Shown piece after piece: positions 1-24,992 of a stretch of DNA of 24,992 nt. Below the pieces are notes generated by a model that had not been told where the DNA came from, ran no database searches, and saw only the letters and a program-made list of their open reading frames with translations. Made by a program: the position numbers and the translations under genes. The stretch is from NCBI GenBank assembly GCA_002224055.1, contig AZLU01000370.1, positions 1 through 24,992 on the forward strand. Reading direction: 5' to 3'. The stretch is from Pezizomycotina sp. ARF18. Its lineage: Eukaryota > Ascomycota. The stretch's first letter is position 1. Every line of letters starts with the position of its first letter.

Positions 1-218
1 TGGATGAGGCGCTTGCCGGTGGACTCTTTGTCGTAGTAGCGGAAGGAGAAGAAGCGACGCCACGGATGACTAGTTTTTTGCTCTTTGGCTCGGCTTGTTG
101 ATCTTGAGGTCGTGGGACGGGTAGAACCAGCCGGAACCTGCGACGCGACGGTGGTATCCTCATGCTGGACCTTGGTGTTATTGGAAGTTTCGGAGACTTG
201 CCCGAAACTTGGGATCTC
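1..218 (-). CDS. unidentified protein, internal or C-terminal fragment cut by the left window edge
   Basis: An open frame of about 72 codons on the minus strand runs from just after an in-frame TGA (complement of 219-221) off the left edge. It has no Met, so this is probably an exon preceded by an intron. The first two thirds is rich in Ser, Thr and Arg (for example VPAGSTRPTTSRSTSRA) and looks disordered. It then becomes compact and aromatic/basic (HPWRRFFSFRYYDKESTGK), which looks like real protein rather than chance. A second minus frame across 70-170 is also open for a while, so the frame choice is not certain. I do not recognise the family. The plus-strand open frame at 85-366 is best explained as its shadow. 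Confidence 0.4.
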
Positions 219-5813: not shown

Positions 5814-8800
5814 AGCAAGAAGTAGTAATATCACATTACTACCAATGAACGCCGCCAATATCCCCAAATCCCTCCACCTGTTGCTATAACTCAAGCTCAA
5901 GCCGTTGTAAAACTCATCCCGACGCTATACGCGCAGTAGCCGCACTCCGACGTCGCGTTGGGGTTAACAAGGTAACCCGTCGCAGTCTTCATGAACTCCG
6001 CCGCGTAATCTCCGCACGTCTTTCCGCTAGGCGGGTCGAAAATATTCAGCTCCGATTGTCTGCAGTGTACCTTTGTCCCGTGCAGTTCCGTCACCAGCAT
6101 ACCGCCGACGAGCGTGAACGGGTTGAGCTGATACAGCCAGTGCCAGAAGCCGACGATCTGGTTAATCGGCGTAGTAACACCGCAGAACAGCGCGAATGTG
6201 ACGATAATAAACGGGTTGAGTAGACCTGAAATAAACGAGTTCGGGTAATAGCTGCGATTAACTGTCCCAGCGTCACGCTGAACATTTCCGTAATTATAAC
6301 GACGAGAATTGGTATCCCGCCGCGTCAGTAGCGTTTGCAATCCGGGATGTAGTAGATCGGCAGGAAGAAAACGACGGCGCAGAGAATACTGTAGGGTATC
6401 TCGGCGATGATCATAGATACGCAGAAGGGGACGCGCGGAATATATCTTCGAGAAGTTTTCGCGGTAGAAGACCATTCTGGCCATGTCGTACTTCGGTTCG
6501 ACCTGTGCGATAATCAAGACAGGCAGGACGGTAACCTGGAAGATAACGAAGACGCGGTACTGCAGGCTAGACCTAGAGTCGTCCAAGCTCATGAAGATCA
6601 AACCTGTAAGGAAAGCAACGATGAAATGGTTGAACAGCCTCGTGAAGCCGTAGTTCGGACTTCTCCAGAAGCTCTTCTGGGCACGTGCGGTGACGACCTT
6701 GATCTGGTACCAGAGCGGAGTAGCGTATTCAAGATCGAGAGCCTTATTCACGTCTTCGCCCGCAGCTTCCTTCGCACGCGTTTCGCGAAGGTTTGCGACA
6801 GCTTCCTTGGTGTTCTTGTATTCCGGAGAGTCCTTCCATATTTCGTGCCAGTCCTTGTTTCCGATTCGAGGCCTGGCCGGCGCCGATGGCATCTAACATG
6901 TATTCAGCAGCGTTCTGATCCGGTGGGCAGTCTGCGCCGTGTCTCTTGAAGTATTCGCGGAGTACAGTGGCGTCCTTGCCGATGTCGCCAAAGTAGATCG
7001 TTTGTCCGCCGGCCTGGAGAAGTAGAAGACGGTCGAATTGCTCGAACAGACTCGCGTTAGGCTGGTGCACAGTACACAAAATAGCTTGACCGGCAGCGGC
7101 CAACTTTCGCAAGAACCTAACAATGTTGAAAGCGCTTGACTGTCGAGACCAGAGTAGGTTCATCAAGAAGAGCAAAAGCTGAGGACGGGCAGCGAGTTCG
7201 ACACCGATAGTAACCCTCTTGCGCTGCTCCACCGTGAGACCAACTTCGTGCGTTCCAATCACGGCATCCGCGATCTCATCGAGTTCCAATAAGCCTATGA
7301 CTTCCTCGACGTACTTATCCTTCTCTTCAACCGAAACATCGTAAGTCTGACGGAGGTATGCGGAAAACCTAGCGCCTCCCTCACAGTTTGCATCGGCTCG
7401 TGAACGTCCAATTGTTCGGCGTAAGCTGTATCACGGGCGAACGATGCACCGGGCTTCTTTGAGTCTATAAGAATATCCCCGAAATGACACCGACGTTCTT
7501 CCTTGCTGCCAGCACGTCCAAAAGCGTTGTTTTTCCAGCTCCAGACGCTCCCATGAGGGCGGTGAGCTCACCGGGCTTAACATATCCGAATACGTGGTCG
7601 AGAAGCCTGCGTTGGCCGCCTGGAACGGGAACATCGTAGCACAGGTTCTCCCATGTAAGAACGGCCTTGGAATTAATCTTGATGTCAGAAGATTCAGCCT
7701 CTGAGCCGGCACTGTGAGTATCGTAGCGCTTTTGACGAGCGGCGGCTCTCTTTGTAGCCAAGTTCTCGTTCAATTTCTTCCTCTCCTTGTTTTCGGGAGT
7801 GTAGACGGCAATCTTCCTCGAAAATACACCAAATTCGATGACATCGCCGAGCCAGGTGTTGAGAATAAGGAAAACACGGACCAAACGACCAAAGCCCAAA
7901 GTTCCTCCACTGGTCCGAAGGACTGTACGAGAATTGCGTCTCAATGTATCGACTTCGGAGATGACATTGAACCCGTAGCGTTCCGGGAAGCGTGCACACC
8001 TGGTGCGCAGGGTCGTTGTACGTCGGACCCGAAGGGACGAGTTGAGAGTTGACGCACTTCAGGTCGATGCCGCGGAATTCGTTATCCATCAACGCGCTAA
8101 ACCGAGACCTAAAGCCGTTGACCAGAATAGCCATCGCAACCAGACTGGCGTCGATTGGTACGGAATCAAGTACCCACAAGTTACAACAAAGATAGTAATC
8201 AGTGTCGCGACAAGTTTAATCGCGTAGTCGTAGTCTATCGAGATGACACCAAGCGTACGAAGAACAGCGTCAACTTCAAAAATCCCAAATGATGATAATC
8301 AGGAACGAAAAGAACGCTCCGGCGTCGTATCGTAGGCCGGACATGAAATAGACGATAAGTGCGAATGCCAGGATGTGAGCGAAGGCGAAATCATGTCGAC
8401 GGCGAGCTGAGCGAGCCACAGAGCGGAGGGACGATGGAAAGCGTATGCTGCGAAAGGTTAGCAGACTACTCCCGGGGGATACCTTTGGTGAACATACCTT
8501 TGTGCTTCGACATGAGCCACGGCCATCATAGTCGCCGGCAGTTCCGAAAAAGCGGACAGCGAATTGAACAGAAAACGTAATAAAGAGACAACCGCCTCTT
8601 AAGAACGCACCAGCTGACGTCGCCGGCATCTTATAAATAAACTCCCTGTAATCAGGCAATGATAATCTGTGTAGCCCATTTGACCTTTAAATTGAAAGTA
8701 TCCTGTAGCTTCAGAAACATCTGTCTCTTAAACAGCAACTTGATCTGAGCCGGATAGGAAATAGTGTACACTGACTTCTTCGCGTGAGGGTTCGTTTTTC

Positions 8801-9686
8801 CTCGCGGACTGCCGCTTTAAAGTCTTCGTGCTGGTGTCTGAGATCCTCGAGCTCCGCTTTGTAAGCGTCTATATCCTTCTCGAGATCCCTCCAGAATGGT
8901 GACTTGCGGAATTCCGCTTCCAAATCCTCCGGGGAAGACGGCGCGTTCGTGTGATCCCTTCCTTCGGCGTAATCCGCTCGAACTCATCCGTGCACCCAGT
9001 CAAGTAATCCGGCGTCGTCTGTCGCGGCTTCGGCGCAAATCCCAAACCTTCAAAGTACGCACGAGCCGTACTAGTAGGCCGAAGTAAACCTCCCTCCCCG
9101 AATCGATAACCAAAACCTTGTCAAACTGTGCGTAAATGTTCTCCGATGCCTGGTAGAGCGATACAAATGTAGTAGTTTGGTACAGATCCGTCATGATACG
9201 CAACGATTTTGCGAAATCGAGGCTGTCGAAGCATCCAAGCCGCGTGTGCTGTTGTCCCAGCTGTACACCGTCCCCCTCGTCGCCATCATTTCCGCGATCG
9301 AAACACGCTTCCTTTCACCTCCGGATATACCTCTGATGGTCGGAATGCCACCGACGAGCGTATTGCGGGTGTGCTCGATGTTGAACATTTTAAGCAGCGT
9401 GTCCACGACCCTGTTGCTGAACTGCTCCCTCGTCATGCTTCCCGGCAGCTTCCTCGGCGTTTTCGTGTCGATTGCGAACTTGAGCGTCTGTGCGACAGAG
9501 AGCGCGGGAAGGTGCATGTCTCCTCCGCGTTATAGCATGCCTCTCCGCGGTACAGCCGGTCGAACGTCTGCGCGTCGAAAGGTCCGTACATGACTTCGCC
9601 ATCGACGCTCGTGTAATCTTTACGTTGGTTAGAGATTGCCTTGAGGAACGTGGTACAGCCGCTACCAGGTTTACCGAGTACCAGAC

Positions 9687-9738
9687 CTGCAAACCGTTAG
9701 CGAAACAACGACCAATATAAGAGAAATTTTGAACGTAC
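9687..9738 (-). other. spliceosomal intron 2 of the ABC transporter
   Basis: On the minus strand it runs from GTACGT through a GCTAAC branch motif to TTTGCAG, 52 nt. It sits between RPGEM and the Walker A strand, exactly where the family reads through without a gap. One missing base after the acceptor (GTC-C-TGG) still breaks the frame. Confidence 0.8.
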
Positions 9739-9924
9739 CATTTCTCCTGGCCTCACTACGCCCGGAAATCCTGAGGATTTCGACTTCGGTGCCGCCGGTA
9801 TGGCCGGTGAGCTGTTTGAACTGCCCGTATACGTTGACGAAATCGACGAAGGCCTCGGGGAAGACCTTGACCTTTGTTTTATCCCTCCCCATCCTTTGAC
9901 CGTGAGGTTATTGAACAAAAACGC

Positions 9925-12128: not shown

Positions 12129-12165
12129 GCCCGGTTAGCTCAATCGGTAGAGCGTGAGACTCTTA

Positions 12166-12206
12166 ATTGTAGTACACACGCATCGTGCACGCAGTCATCT
12201 TAAGAT
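12166..12206 (+). other. canonical pre-tRNA intron at 37/38 of tRNA-Lys copy 1
   Basis: This 41-nt insert sits at the standard eukaryotic position one base 3' of the anticodon. Its 3' part (CTTAAGAT) can pair with the anticodon loop, giving the anticodon-intron helix that the tRNA splicing endonuclease recognises. Confidence 0.8.
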
Positions 12207-12235
12207 ATCTCAAGGCTGCGGGTTCGAGCCCCGCA

Positions 12236-12300
12236 GTATGTGAAATCCCTTCCTTTGAACTTCAGAATTTATCTGAAACATCTAACTAACCGTTTAACAG
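12236..12300 (+). other. spliceosomal-type (GT-AG) intron in the acceptor stem of tRNA-Lys copy 1
   Basis: The 65-nt insert begins with the strong donor GTATGT, has overlapping branch-like motifs CTAACTAAC at 12282-12290, and ends TTTAACAG. It interrupts the tRNA between positions 66 and 67. Its removal recreates A66-TTGGGC, which pairs with GCCCGGT. Copy 2 has an insert at exactly the same position whose middle has diverged while the donor, branch region and CAG end are kept. Confidence 0.8.
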
Positions 12301-12330
12301 TTGGGCTGTAGCTTCAATCCACTAGGACAT

Positions 12331-12339
12331 TTTTTTTTT
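12331..12339 (+). terminator. Pol III terminator of tRNA-Lys copy 1
   Basis: A run of about nine T starts some 20 nt after the restored 3' end of the tRNA, and it is the first T run of four or more after the gene start. A T run in the non-template strand is the RNA polymerase III stop signal. Its placement after the distal acceptor piece supports the transcript including the 65-nt insert. Confidence 0.65.
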
Positions 12340-13260: not shown

Positions 13261-14110
13261 CACATTTACTCTTTTTTTTTTGTGCTATATTAAATATATT
13301 CATCCGTTCTTGGACCCGACGATACGCGATCTTCGACTTGGTGTTTTAGACCGAGTTGAAAGACATTTCAAAATCCTTGGCACGCCGAGACTTTTGAATG
13401 ATATTGTTGAAACTTCACACGCGCTAAAAAAAAAAAGCAGGGAAAATTTTTACAGATAAATTTGTGAAACATCTTTAAGATGCTATATATCGATATATAT
13501 ATTCATAGTAATGTACGAGGATCTGAGACCGAGTAATCTAGTACCCTATCGCGTTTACACATTCGAAACAATGAAAGCGATTGCACCTTGCATATATTAT
13601 TCAATAATAATCATTAAAAATATTCAAAAGATCGATAAAAAAGGTTGATAGGTTTGTCCACCTCGACTATATAAGCGCGACCTTTTGATTTTAAGCTTTA
13701 AAAAAATACTGAACAAAGAGAGAGAGGTGGTTGTCCATCATAGCCCTTTTTTATTTGTTTGCTTTTTATTTATTTATTTTTATTTTGGTGATTTTGCTGG
13801 AGAAACGGATGTAAACTGAAAGGAAGTTTGAACTTGCGGCATATCATATAAGTATACGCCGCTATTACAAGGCCCTGTGCTGAGCTAGCTATTACAATTG
13901 TACAAGCCCGATGTCCGGTTGCTTCATCGACCGCACTAAACCTTCCTTGATAGGGCCCTATACTAACTACGTATTCATGAGAGTGGTTTTTCCCATATTT
14001 AATTACACAGCTTCGAGCTCGATAACTCATGCAATAATATATAGTCATTTCGAAGCTTGCGGCCTTCACCCAACAGCGAGCCCGGTTAGCTCAATTCGGC
14101 AGAGCGTGAG

Positions 14111-14174
14111 GTAATTTAAAATGCCAAATTCCCTAATTCGTCCAGATCTAGTGCTAACCAATCATTGCTCTTAG
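14111..14174 (+). other. spliceosomal-type intron A in the anticodon stem of tRNA-Lys copy 2
   Basis: A 64-nt insert, GTAATT at the 5' end, GCTAACC branch-like motif at about 14152-14158, and CTCTTAG at the 3' end. It splits the anticodon stem after TGAG; joining restores TGAGA pairing with TCTCA. Copy 1 is uninterrupted at this site, so this is a gain in copy 2 or a loss in copy 1. Confidence 0.75.
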
Positions 14175-14181
14175 ACTCTTA

Positions 14182-14203
14182 CTATAAGCGTAGCCTTTAA
14201 GAT
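14182..14203 (+). other. canonical pre-tRNA intron at 37/38 of tRNA-Lys copy 2
   Basis: A 22-nt insert directly after position 37 containing TTTAAGA, which can pair with the anticodon loop TCTTA. It corresponds in position to the 41-nt intron of copy 1 but differs in length and sequence. Confidence 0.75.
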
Positions 14204-14223
14204 ATCTCAAGGTTGCGGGTTCG

Positions 14224-14282
14224 GTAGGAGTTCCACTCCCACCTGTCAATGGTTCGAATACATTACTAACTCTCTTCAATAG
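14224..14282 (+). other. spliceosomal-type intron B in the T loop of tRNA-Lys copy 2
   Basis: A 59-nt insert beginning GTAGGA, with the near-ideal branch motif TACTAAC at 14264-14270 and ending TTCAATAG. Its removal rebuilds TTCGA of the T loop. It also contains GGTTCGAATAC (14251-14261), close to the Pol III B-box consensus, which may stand in for the B box it interrupts. Confidence 0.75.
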
Positions 14283-14291
14283 ACCCCCGCA

Positions 14292-14358
14292 GTAAGTACA
14301 CTTCCGCCCAGTACTAAAGTCTTGAATAATCATCAATAGCTAACCAACCATCCAACAG
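14292..14358 (+). other. spliceosomal-type intron C in the acceptor stem of tRNA-Lys copy 2
   Basis: A 67-nt insert beginning with the consensus donor GTAAGT, with CTAACCAACC near 14340-14350 and ending CCAACAG. It occupies the same site as the intron of copy 1, and its 3' end (CTAACCAACC...CAACAG) aligns with CTAACTAACC...TAACAG there, while the interior has diverged. Confidence 0.8.
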
Positions 14359-14378
14359 TCGGGCTTTCCAAATGCAAA

Positions 14379-14390
14379 TTTTTTTTTTTT
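14379..14390 (+). terminator. Pol III terminator of tRNA-Lys copy 2
   Basis: A T12 run beginning 14 nt after the restored 3' end at 14365. It is the first run of four or more T after the gene start at 14080, so a Pol III transcript should include all four inserts. Confidence 0.7.
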
Positions 14391-21559: not shown

Positions 21560-22343
21560 CAATACGAGATATAATATTATAAAGATTCGTTTTATATAGA
21601 ATTCCTTTTATATATAAACGGTAGGATACTACCCTTAATAGATAGTTTATTTTATATAATTAATAATTTTAATTTATCCTATAAGTAGTAATAAACTATA
21701 TAAAAAGTAATAGCTATATCCCGCGCTATCTTAAAACGGCAATCTAAATCTTAGATAGTAACGTCGCGAAGCTTATAACGTAGTACTTCTTAAGAAATAA
21801 CTCTACTTTATCTCGCCGCTTATCGCGCTGTCGCGAGGTATTATGATACGCTCGGCTATAGTAGAGTAAATAATCTAATATTATACCCGCCGATTCTAAT
21901 AGAAGATACCTACCGTATAGCGCCGAGTATACCCGAGCTATCTAGTATCGTATAATAAGCGATTCGCTATAATCCTATCCCGCTACTTAAGTAGAGTAGC
22001 GACTAGCTACTTTAGGAAAGGCGTAACTTAAAACTATGTATATCGAAGCTCGCCGATACTATCGTAAAATCTAAGACCCCGATAAGAAGCTTAGTAAAGA
22101 CGAATAGGCTTATTACGATACGGTAATGTACTTATTACTTTTACGGTAGGAATTAAGTAGATTTATTACTTTAACGCTAATAAATAAGGTATAAGCCGTT
22201 TAGATAGCTCTTAAATCTATAAACTTTATAAATAACGAGGTAAATTAATAAATATTAGAACTTTAGCTAATAAGTATATACTAAAAGACGACGATACTAT
22301 ATATACGTATATTAACCGCGTAAAGGATAGTAGTAGTGTTCGA

Positions 22344-22462
22344 TGCCGGGCGGGTTCGGGCGGGTTTTCAAGGCTCCGGCCCGCCCGCGGGGTACCCTAA
22401 TGGTTTTAAGCCCGCCCAGCGGGTAACCCGGCCCAACCCTACCCGGGCTAGGTTACCCGCCA
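22344..22462. repeat. GC-rich repetitive island inside the RIP block
   Basis: About 120 bp of C/G-rich sequence with repeated GGGCGGGTT units followed by inverted counterparts (GCCCGCCCG, AAGCCCGCCC) and GGGTAACCC/GGTTACCC motifs. It retains CA and TG that RIP has removed on both sides, so it inserted later or was too short to be targeted. It can form hairpins and has closely spaced G tracts. Confidence 0.7.
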
Positions 22463-22779
22463 AGACATTTATCTACGCCAAGAATATCTATTTATAGTAT
22501 ATATATATATTATTATAACTTTATTTCTTAATTATATACCCTATATATTTATCTCTTACTTATATCTTAATATTAACGATATTATTACTAGATTATTCCT
22601 AAGTTTATTTAATCTAGCTAATATTCTTTTATATATAATAAATTTAAAAGAAAAATAAAAATAAATTACTATATTATTACTTAGTAGATCCGTACTATCC
22701 TTTATTTTTTATAATATATTATCTAAATCGTTTAAGAAATTACGCTCGTTAAATCGGGTATATCTAAAAAAAAAAGTCT

Positions 22780-22791
22780 GTCTCATGAGAC
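22780..22791. repeat. 12-bp perfect palindrome GTCTCATGAGAC
   Basis: This lies just after an A10 run, in a 90-bp stretch that keeps CA and TG within the RIP block. It may be a relic terminus of a younger insertion; no partner end was found. Confidence 0.5.
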
Positions 22792-24992
22792 GGTCGAGAA
22801 AATCAACGTCTTACACGTCTCAAACTCTTAGGAAATATCGCTAATATAAATCCTTTTGGGTTAGCTTAATAACGCTTAGAGAAATACGTTATCTTATAAA
22901 ACTTTTAAGAATATCTACTCTTTTAATATCTCTACTTAGATTAGAGAAATTATATAGTTTAATTAAAGTCTTAGATATTATTAAAAATTCTAATTATTAA
23001 AACTTTTCTTTTACTTTAAAATAAATTTTTAACTCTATAAATAAGTATATTAACTCTTAAGATTATATTAGTAGATTAAGTTAAAAGTTTCTAGATTAAT
23101 ATATAATTATCTAGTATATTTTATTTTTAGAATCTACCGTTTTAGGTATGATCTACGTCGCTCGAATAAGATTTCCGACTAAAAGAATAATTCTTTACGT
23201 AAAGGTATAAACGCGTTAAGTTAACGATATTAATACTAAGTTACTTATAATAATAACTTATTTTTACTAATTTATAATTTTATCTAGTTTCCTATATCTA
23301 AATAATTCGTCGTTAAAATAAAGGCGAGACGGTAAGATTTATTTTCTACGAATATTAAAACTTAAAGAGTAGACGCGTTAATATTAGATATTATCTTAAC
23401 TCTATCTATTTATATTAGTAACTTAAAATAAACCTAAGCCTAATTATTAAGGTAGTTTATCTTATTAATTAGCCGACTAGGTATAGCGTATTTAATAGAT
23501 ATCGATATATTTTTTATTTTTAAAGGAAATTAATTAAAATTTTTAGTTAATTATAAATAGTAATAGGTTTCTAACGTAGCCGCTTATAAAGCTTATATAT
23601 TTTAAAAGTTAACCTCTAAATTACTAAAGTAAGCGTAATTATCGCGAAAATTATATAATTAAAAATATTAGATCTATAAACGCTTTTCTTAAATAATATC
23701 TTTAAAGGTTAAAAAATCTTACTTAATATAAGACCCTTAAAAATTATATATTAACTTTAAAAGTTTATATTATAGGCTTAAAGGTTAATAGCTTAGAGTA
23801 TTTTTTTTATTAATTCTTAGATTAATATTTAATCTAGAAAAAAATAAAAATTAGCGCGCCGACGTTAATAGTTAAAAACGCTATAATAACTACCTACGTA
23901 TTTTATAAACGGAGAGATTAGATTACCTCTATTAATAATTTCTTTTTTTATAATTAATTTAGATTAAATCGCGTATATAAAATACGTACTAACGACGGTT
24001 TATATTAATAATTTAATCTTTAAATAATAAAGCTTTTTTATTAAAGTTTTCCTATGGCTTTTTAACTAAGTTAATATATATTCTTTTAGAAGTTTCCGTT
24101 AATTATTAAAGAATAATACCGTAACTCTTTATACTATTAGAATAATATTATAAAAGCATAGTTTATAATCTTAAAGTAAATATATAATTATCTAGTTTTT
24201 TTATTATCCGTTTATCTTTTTTAAAGCGGTTTTTTATTTTTATCGTCTAAGATAATAATTCTCTTTTACGTTAACTAAATCCTCTTTATTAAAAGATAAA
24301 GTTACTCTTTATCTATATCGGAATTTTTCTTACTCTATAATAATCTATAATTAAGGCTATAAAATATTAGTTAATTAATATATAAGTAATTAACTCTAAC
24401 TATTTATACTAATCTACAGGAAATATCATCACGCCTATCTACTTCTTTAGTCGGCTAAGCTTCCGCTTTTTACTAATTAAACGATATTTAATAAATAATA
24501 TTTAGCGATAAAACCTTCTTAAATAATTATCTATTATTTAAGCGTCGTCTTATTATAAAAGGGGTTTAAATATTAGCGTAAACCTAATAATAGACTATAC
24601 GTAAATAATTATTTATCATAAAAATATTAACTTATATAAATAAAAATTCTTTAAATAATTACTATATAAATTACTATAATCTATTAAACTTTTTAGTTTT
24701 GAGCCTTATTATTATTAACCTCGTATACGCCTCTTTATATATAAACTCTAAAATAGACTAATAAACGCTTTTGACTTTATAATAACTTTTAAAATATTTA
24801 TAATATTTAAGAAAAAAATCTAACTAATTAAAAATATATTTAAAAAGTCTAATAAATAGTATATAATTATTTAACTTTTATAAATTTAGAATATCTACTT
24901 ATTAAAAAGCTAAAATATTCTAAGATAATTTAATCTAGAGTTTTTAATTATCCTTTACCTAGAGTCTCTATTAAAGAACTTTATCTAAAGAG

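Follow-up and report, generated by a model that had tools for sequence, protein, structure and literature searches.

GT-AG inserts, probably spliceosomal introns, interrupt nuclear tRNA genes in the fungus Pezizomycotina sp. ARF18

We identified 22 nuclear tRNA genes in Pezizomycotina sp. ARF18 that are interrupted by 29 GT-AG introns on 19 contigs, a curated set from a non-exhaustive survey. Several of the interrupted sites recur across unrelated isotypes, and a single gene holds up to three such introns. The anatomy of the genes, the junctions, the splice signals, the promoter and terminator context, the recurrence and the presence or absence of inserts among paralogues are directly observed. 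We propose that the inserts are U2-type spliceosomal introns in tRNA genes transcribed by RNA polymerase III (Pol III), excised by the spliceosome before ordinary tRNA processing, a reading to which we assign a probability of about 0.9. The window analysed here is the whole of one 24,992-nt contig (C370) of the 46.4-Mb, 408-contig genome. The preliminary description of this window had interpreted one nuclear tRNA gene as split by spliceosomal-type introns and had called for a scan of the tRNA genes of the same genome for such inserts. The scan produced the set given above; the interpretation is supported and extends to 22 genes, from which the introns would be removed by splicing.

RESULTS

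Lys-CUU genes in the window

Gene A, one of two Lys-CUU genes in the window (Table 1), carries three GT-AG introns as well as an ordinary anticodon-loop intron. The inserts of 64, 59 and 67 nt given in the preliminary description, with their donors, branch motifs and acceptors, are letter for letter correct. It had located them in the anticodon stem, T loop and acceptor stem, and hand numbering from the anticodon and T loop, used for all sites reported here, places them at 30/31, 57/58 and 66/67. All three contain CTAAC, with its A lying 13-17 nt before the intron end. The joined exons form a 96-nt precursor, from which removal of the 22-nt intron leaves 74 nt; ARAGORN names both tRNA-Lys(ctt), in agreement with the 74-nt Lys CUU cloverleaf that had been described. 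The unspliced genomic stretch of gene A gave no ARAGORN call, ARAGORN found no tRNA in the window as a whole, and the sole Rfam match at gathering scores over the whole window covered part of the neighbouring tRNA copy (12129-12242). No group I or group II catalytic core was found by the Rfam scan of the window, which covers its four GT-AG introns, and a length of 50-76 nt is too short for a self-splicing intron of either group.

The insert of gene B reads GTATGT..CTAACTAAC..AACAG and occupies the acceptor-stem site of gene A intron 3, while gene B is uninterrupted at the sites of gene A introns 1 and 2. A third Lys-CUU copy, gene C (L103, on C193), carries the same 66/67 insert as gene B; the two introns differ at 5 of 65 positions, none of them in the donor, branch motif or AG. 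For gene A intron 1 taken alone, cuts other than GT-AG received higher ARAGORN scores, and its junction therefore rests on the gene B paralogue together with the two Tyr genes interrupted at the same site. The anticodon-loop introns of genes A (22 nt) and B (41 nt) are located at 37/38 and are complementary to the anticodon (by eye), a trait of introns removed by the tRNA splicing endonuclease (TSEN).

Table 1. Lys-CUU gene features in the window (window coordinates) and sites of the GT-AG introns in the curated tRNA genes (hand-numbered tRNA positions)
Feature	Position	Strand	Details
Lys-CUU gene B	12129..12307	+	41-nt anticodon-loop intron and one GT-AG intron
Gene B intron, 65 nt	12236..12300	+	at 66/67; GTATGT..CTAACTAACC..AACAG; 92% identical to same-site L103 intron
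10-T run after gene B	12330..12339	+	
Gene A exon 1	14080..14110	+	acceptor 5' strand, D arm, start of anticodon stem
Gene A intron 1, 64 nt	14111..14174	+	at 30/31; GTAATT..GCTAACC..TTAG; gene B uninterrupted there; site shared with Tyr L105, L112
Gene A exon 2	14175..14223	+	anticodon CTT; houses ordinary tRNA intron
Gene A ordinary anticodon-loop intron, 22 nt	14182..14203	+	intron TAAGA complementary to exon TCTTA (by eye)
Gene A intron 2, 59 nt	14224..14282	+	at 57/58; GTAGGA..ACTAACT..ATAG; splits B box; gene B uninterrupted there; site shared with Tyr L113
B-box-like GGTTCGAATAC in gene A intron 2	14251..14261	+	possible substitute; 12.6 bits; 0/500 shuffles
Gene A exon 3	14283..14291	+	
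Gene A intron 3, 67 nt	14292..14358	+	at 66/67; GTAAGT..GCTAACC..ACAG; same site in genes B and C
Gene A exon 4	14359..14365	+	acceptor 3' strand and discriminator
12-T run after gene A	14379..14390	+	Pol III terminator-like
5'-side sites	6/7; 7/8; 9/10		Tyr C; Leu-AAG B; Leu-CAA
D-loop inserts			Leu-AAG A and B, Leu-CAA, Glu-UUC
Anticodon-stem sites	28/29; 30/31; 31/32		Pro B; Lys A, Tyr A and B; Pro A, Glu-CUC, His
Variable-loop insert			Val (doubtful, 50 nt)
T-arm sites	52/53; 53/54		Arg A and B, Pro A, Val; Asp A and B, Ile
T-loop sites	57/58; 58-60		Lys A, Tyr C; Ser A and B
3' acceptor-stem site	66/67		Lys A, B, C

Interrupted tRNA genes across the genome

The survey combined the Rfam tRNA model, a B-box plus poly-T pattern, two D-arm patterns, a DNA search with three mature tRNAs and a CTAAC-to-T-arm pattern, after which the stretches were read. 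All matches on C50 (taken as mitochondrial) and two AT-rich matches on C257 (L023, L024) were excluded before counting. Counts are non-exhaustive, the Rfam scan having missed intact genes such as L091 and L109. The curated genes are Lys-CUU (three), Arg-ACG (two), Glu-UUC, Glu-CUC, Leu-AAG (two), Leu-CAA, Pro-AGG (two), His-GUG, Asp-GUC (two), Tyr-GUA (three), Ile-AAU, Ser-AGA (two) and Val-UAC. Isotypes were assigned by hand, and ARAGORN agrees for 18 of the 22 spliced genes, reading the Ile anticodon as gat; its calls differ for Leu-CAA (Ala), Tyr A (Asp), Val (Gly) and, with both introns out, Tyr C (Thr). Spliced exons form cloverleaves in 21 of the 22 genes, and Tyr C does so as well when its second intron is removed. 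Another 30 tRNA loci have no such insert, 28 of them with an ARAGORN call and two (L085 and L110) recognised by eye. Both Asp copies and all three Tyr copies found are interrupted, as is the only Leu-CAA copy found; the DNA search returned only interrupted copies of these three, yet it missed the diverged Tyr copy L112.

The inserts are distributed over the acceptor stem, D arm, anticodon stem, variable region, T arm and T loop, and by reading none of the 29 lies at the 37/38 TSEN position, one base 3' of the anticodon. The same sequence occurs with and without an insert among paralogues of Lys, Leu-AAG (A/B), Tyr (A/B/C), Glu-CUC (L030 vs L116), Ile (L108 vs L109) and the Pro T arm, and it is these pairs that fix the junctions. 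A second His gene (L091) is uninterrupted. The introns of Asp A and B align at 79% over 58 nt and retain GTAAGCG, GCTAAC and AAAG. Conservation of the GT, branch motif and AG, which the preliminary description had proposed to check in relatives, was followed here in paralogues, where Lys B/C and Asp A/B keep all three. A further intron was expected in Tyr C (L113), which started after GCTAAC..AAAG without a 5' acceptor strand; the upstream DNA, fetched later, held the missing CCGACC followed by GTGAGT and with it a 68-nt intron, an expectation that had not been recorded beforehand.

Some copies depart from this picture in detail. Three (L028, L118 and L103) lack one G after or near splicing, and Asp B (L124) lacks one C. 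These deficits are probably consensus errors of the kind seen in the actin gene L120 (C382:14500-16050), which carries four single-base errors, some or all of which are homopolymer losses. The actin is otherwise close to that of Pezizomycotina, agreeing at 39 of 39 C-terminal positions, which makes a filamentous ascomycete the probable source. In the Val-UAC gene (L097, C118:106050-106540) a long variable loop remains after removal, and intron 1 has no branch motif. This 50-nt insert repeats the gene's own TTCGATCCCTGGAG and may be a tandem duplication that acts as, or is turning into, an intron. The last ~35 nt of a Pro-AGG gene recur immediately behind it as a near copy that has a separate poly-T run (L083, C37:136883-136999). 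In 192 kb of genome DNA searched for introner-like copies, only one 20-nt match was found outside the introns' own or paralogous sites, the end of the Arg A intron, in L027 outside its gene.

Five loci were not counted, as GT-AG removal did not resolve them (L081, L088, L089, L090 and L102). In the tRNA family of L081, L088, L089 and L090, roughly 105-200 nt (by eye) separate the anticodon-stem strands, longer than the other anticodon-loop introns here. Two related loci, L053 (C3:405199-405250) and L127 (C77:141640-142030), share CTACTAAC..CAG, a T-arm-like 3' exon and a poly-T run; no 5' half was recognised in either and both were left out of the counts. They may represent a Pol III RNA of another kind or a multi-intron tRNA. 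The CTAAC-to-T-arm pattern was noisy, with 41 matches vs 49 in a reversed control. Five of the 41 fall in L053, L097, L104, L028 and L124, nine others were fetched and 27 lay outside the reading. No tRNA was accepted among the nine, of which only L127 looks related to L053. One of the nine (L130) gave a single low ARAGORN call (101.9) with two segments removed, which we took as chance. The B-box pattern marked 59 places, of which all but four (on C44, C104, C142 and C222) were fetched; about 15 of the fetched had no recognisable tRNA.

Splice signals and control cuts

A GT donor is present in 28 of 28 introns by construction of the curated set. The donor begins with GTA in 24 of the 28 and has G at +5 in 20; the ends are TAG (12), CAG (10) and AAG (6). 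A YTAAY branch motif is found in 28 of 29 introns, and 25 of the 29 have CTAAC close to the 3' end. In 24 of 28 introns the A of CTAAC lies 9-20 nt from the end, compared to a mean of 0.83 and a maximum of 5 in 2000 shuffles. Leaving out the doubtful 50-nt Val insert, the introns are 58-76 nt long. The two aligned introns of the actin gene L120 have GTATGT/GTAAGT, CTAAT/CTAAC and CAG, but they are longer (109 and 99 nt), and 23-24 nt separate the branch A from the intron end.

In a blind cut test, every segment of 45-85 nt was removed from 40 of 72 loci, those without an unspliced call (555,141 cuts), and a locus was scored as restored once ARAGORN called it at 110 or above; the 40 probably include some loci that are not tRNA genes. 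GT..AG ranked first of 256 end pairs, restoring 11 loci compared with a mean of 3.2 and 6 for the next best. The 11 comprise ten curated genes and L090, which was not accepted. When all cuts were scored by ARAGORN regardless of their ends, the curated product was top or joint top in only 10 of 27 introns; for the remainder another cut outscored it or ARAGORN gave an unexpected isotype. GT-AG products make up about 0.2-1.2% of all products in this comparison. When the anticodon-stem intron is retained, ARAGORN still predicts a tRNA in six of seven genes, now with one anticodon intron of 70-103 nt; the isotype changes in all six, and compared with the spliced form the score is lower in five and slightly higher for Tyr A. 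The anticodon-stem sites are argued from paralogues and the branch motif.

Pol III context of the interrupted genes

A poly-T run of at least seven begins no more than 22 nt after the end of each of the 22 genes. Within the tRNA introns, TTTT occurs in one of 29, where shuffling expects 7.7 of 28 (P 0.0005), and runs of five or more T are absent, compared to 2.3 expected (P 0.08). For comparison, five actin-family genes gave 14 proposed intron gaps, some probably wrong and most longer than the tRNA introns, and 9 of these gaps contain TTTT. An exon holds the whole B box in 11 genes; in seven others (Arg A and B, Pro A, Asp A and B, Ile and Val) it is completed by the G or AG that ends the intron.

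The B box is split in the remaining four genes, Lys A, Tyr C, Ser A and Ser B. Native B boxes score 8.9-17.8 bits (29 genes), and good substitutes are present in the introns of two of the four, GGTTCGAATAC in Lys A (Table 1) and AGTTCAATTCC in Ser A (12.5 bits, 0/500 shuffles). No convincing substitute was found in the Tyr C intron, where the best B-box-like stretch has 6.0 bits (2.6% of shuffles), or in Ser B, where the intron reaches 5.8 bits (8.6%) and a stretch spanning the exon-intron border reaches 8.5, slightly below the native range. Among introns that do not split the box, 4 of 24 (Pro B, His and both Val introns) have a B-box-like stretch at P <0.05, about one being expected. A special role for these stretches is weakened, since they also occur in introns that do not need them.

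Further Pol III genes were inspected in the same genome. The U6 snRNA gene L059 (C4:72236-72350, minus) has a GT-AG intron between the 5' stem-loop (..GGGACATTTGGTC) and ATTTTGAAACGATACAGAG (by eye). The span of the Rfam match had suggested an intronless gene; reading the sequence showed the intron, Infernal having aligned a wrong 5' part. Less than 1 kb away is another U6-like gene (L060, C4:71422-71530), which is more diverged and altered in its 5' part. Of 18 matches to 5S rRNA, 15 pass the cut-off; by span these measure 116-123 nt each and none is split.

DISCUSSION

Proposed processing and alternative explanations

From the features described above we infer transcription by Pol III, removal by the spliceosome and the order of steps. 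Pol III would transcribe an interrupted tRNA gene from its internal A and B boxes. The B box would mostly remain readable, either with the intron beside it or with the intron's terminal AG supplying its first bases, and in two genes with a split box the intron would hold a spare. Transcription would stop at the poly-T run, and the nuclear spliceosome would then remove the GT-AG introns, allowing the cloverleaf to form. RNase P, tRNase Z and export would follow, with TSEN removing the ordinary anticodon-loop intron last. Splicing is placed at the start because RNase P, tRNase Z and TSEN require a folded tRNA body, which the GT-AG introns break. To our knowledge, Tyr and Asp each have one anticodon in eukaryotic nuclear genomes. 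Since all Asp and Tyr copies found are interrupted, the introns have to be excised in the cell, unless the searches overlooked intact copies, and protein synthesis in this fungus appears to require the mRNA splicing machinery for tRNA production. Whether three elements hold jointly is a more tentative matter, for which we would offer slightly less than even odds: that the supply of at least the Tyr and Asp tRNAs is spliceosome-dependent, that two splicing systems act in a fixed order, and that introns breaking the B box bring their own, the intron thereby serving as promoter of its host.

Four other explanations have to be weighed against spliceosomal introns in Pol III genes. The precursors might be spliced by the spliceosome and yet originate from RNA polymerase II (Pol II), to which spliceosomal splicing is usually coupled, and T-loop introns do split the B box in four genes. 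The avoidance of T runs within introns, the poly-T run after all 22 genes, B boxes that are intact, completed or replaced in 20 of 22, and the interrupted U6 gene in the same genome, U6 being a Pol III gene, argue against a Pol II origin, and we consider it improbable. It is still harder to view the inserts as ectopic or long tRNA introns cut by the tRNA splicing endonuclease, as in archaea, Cyanidioschyzon and the Guillardia nucleomorph. The same genes do bear ordinary anticodon-loop introns, six of the seven anticodon-stem introns are absorbed by ARAGORN as one long anticodon intron (with the wrong isotype), and tRNA introns at unusual sites have been described, in Guillardia often without a defined BHB motif according to the part of the source available (PMC3978253). 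The GT..AG ends, the CTAAC motif and the narrow range of 58-76 nt are, however, foreign to such introns, and those in the acceptor stem, D arm, T arm and T loop cannot be absorbed as an anticodon intron, making endonuclease cleavage very unlikely.

Also very unlikely is that the interrupted loci are dead genes or insertion relics, with the tRNAs supplied by intact copies elsewhere. The survey could have overlooked such copies, given that it is non-exhaustive and that Rfam missed the intact L091 and L109, and the four copies that look one G or one C short could be taken for decayed genes. Against this, the spliced exons give cloverleaves (21/22, and Tyr C with its second intron out), the two intron pairs compared between paralogues drift yet keep their signals, T runs are avoided in the introns, and for Asp, Tyr and Leu-CAA the DNA search yielded only interrupted copies, even though it missed L112. 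An assembly artefact can be practically dismissed: the assembly does contain single-base errors, four of them in the actin gene on C382, but losses of single bases could not have produced, on 19 contigs, 29 inserts of 50-76 nt that lie at tRNA junctions and carry splice signals. Spliceosomal introns in Pol III-transcribed tRNA genes thus remain our preferred explanation.

Relation to known introns and significance

The U6 intron is a known precedent for a spliced Pol III RNA, and the rDNA of lichen fungi contains short mRNA-type spliceosomal introns in non-coding RNA genes. The inserts described here resemble the introns of fungal U6 snRNA and U3 snoRNA genes, U6 being transcribed by Pol III, in having GT-AG ends and branch motifs within small structured RNA genes. 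They differ in their hosts, which are tRNA genes of many isotypes with internal promoters, up to three introns per gene and often a TSEN intron in addition. The lichen introns, in contrast, reside in rRNA genes transcribed by Pol I. Ordinary TSEN introns are present at 37/38 in some of the same genes (22 nt in Lys A, 41 nt in Lys B), whereas the GT-AG introns are found in the acceptor stem, D arm, anticodon stem, T arm and T loop and have spliceosomal signals. In Cyanidioschyzon, the Guillardia nucleomorph and the Thermoproteales, tRNA genes are also broken at unusual sites, sometimes repeatedly; the available parts of two sources describe these introns as BHB-type or undefined and not as GT-AG introns with a branch site (PMC3978253, PMC8450103).

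The preliminary description knew of no described class of such introns in nuclear tRNA genes, and among the matches listed in the open literature we likewise found no report of spliceosomal introns there, subscription journals and preprints being outside the scope of the search. A review of 2026, in the part accessible, treats tRNA splicing as spliceosome-independent (PMC13149111), and spliceosomal tRNA introns go unmentioned in the accessible parts of three reviews on tRNA (PMC4090602, PMC3978253, PMC4033280). The noncanonical-intron search of tRNAscan-SE 2.0 is aimed at archaeal BHB introns, and the string 'spliceosom' is absent from the main text as available (PMC8450103). Standard tRNA finders miss genes interrupted in this way, and the same introns may be concealed in other fungal genomes whose annotation shows too few tRNA genes. 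If our reading is correct, Pol III tRNA transcripts are regular substrates of the spliceosome. This would open to study splicing without a cap and without coupling to Pol II, the entry of introns into non-coding genes, and the action of two splicing systems on one precursor.

Other features of the window and genome

At 5897-9752 of the window, on the minus strand, Pfam ABC2_membrane and ABC_tran matches lie in separate frames (searched in pieces), pointing to an ABC transporter remnant or an intron-rich gene. The G+C content falls to 0.30 and 0.22 in window positions 22001-24000, compared to 0.34-0.53 in the other 1-kb steps. Elsewhere in the genome, the 231-kb contig C50 has 33 tRNA matches in one orientation and is probably an unusually large mitochondrial genome.
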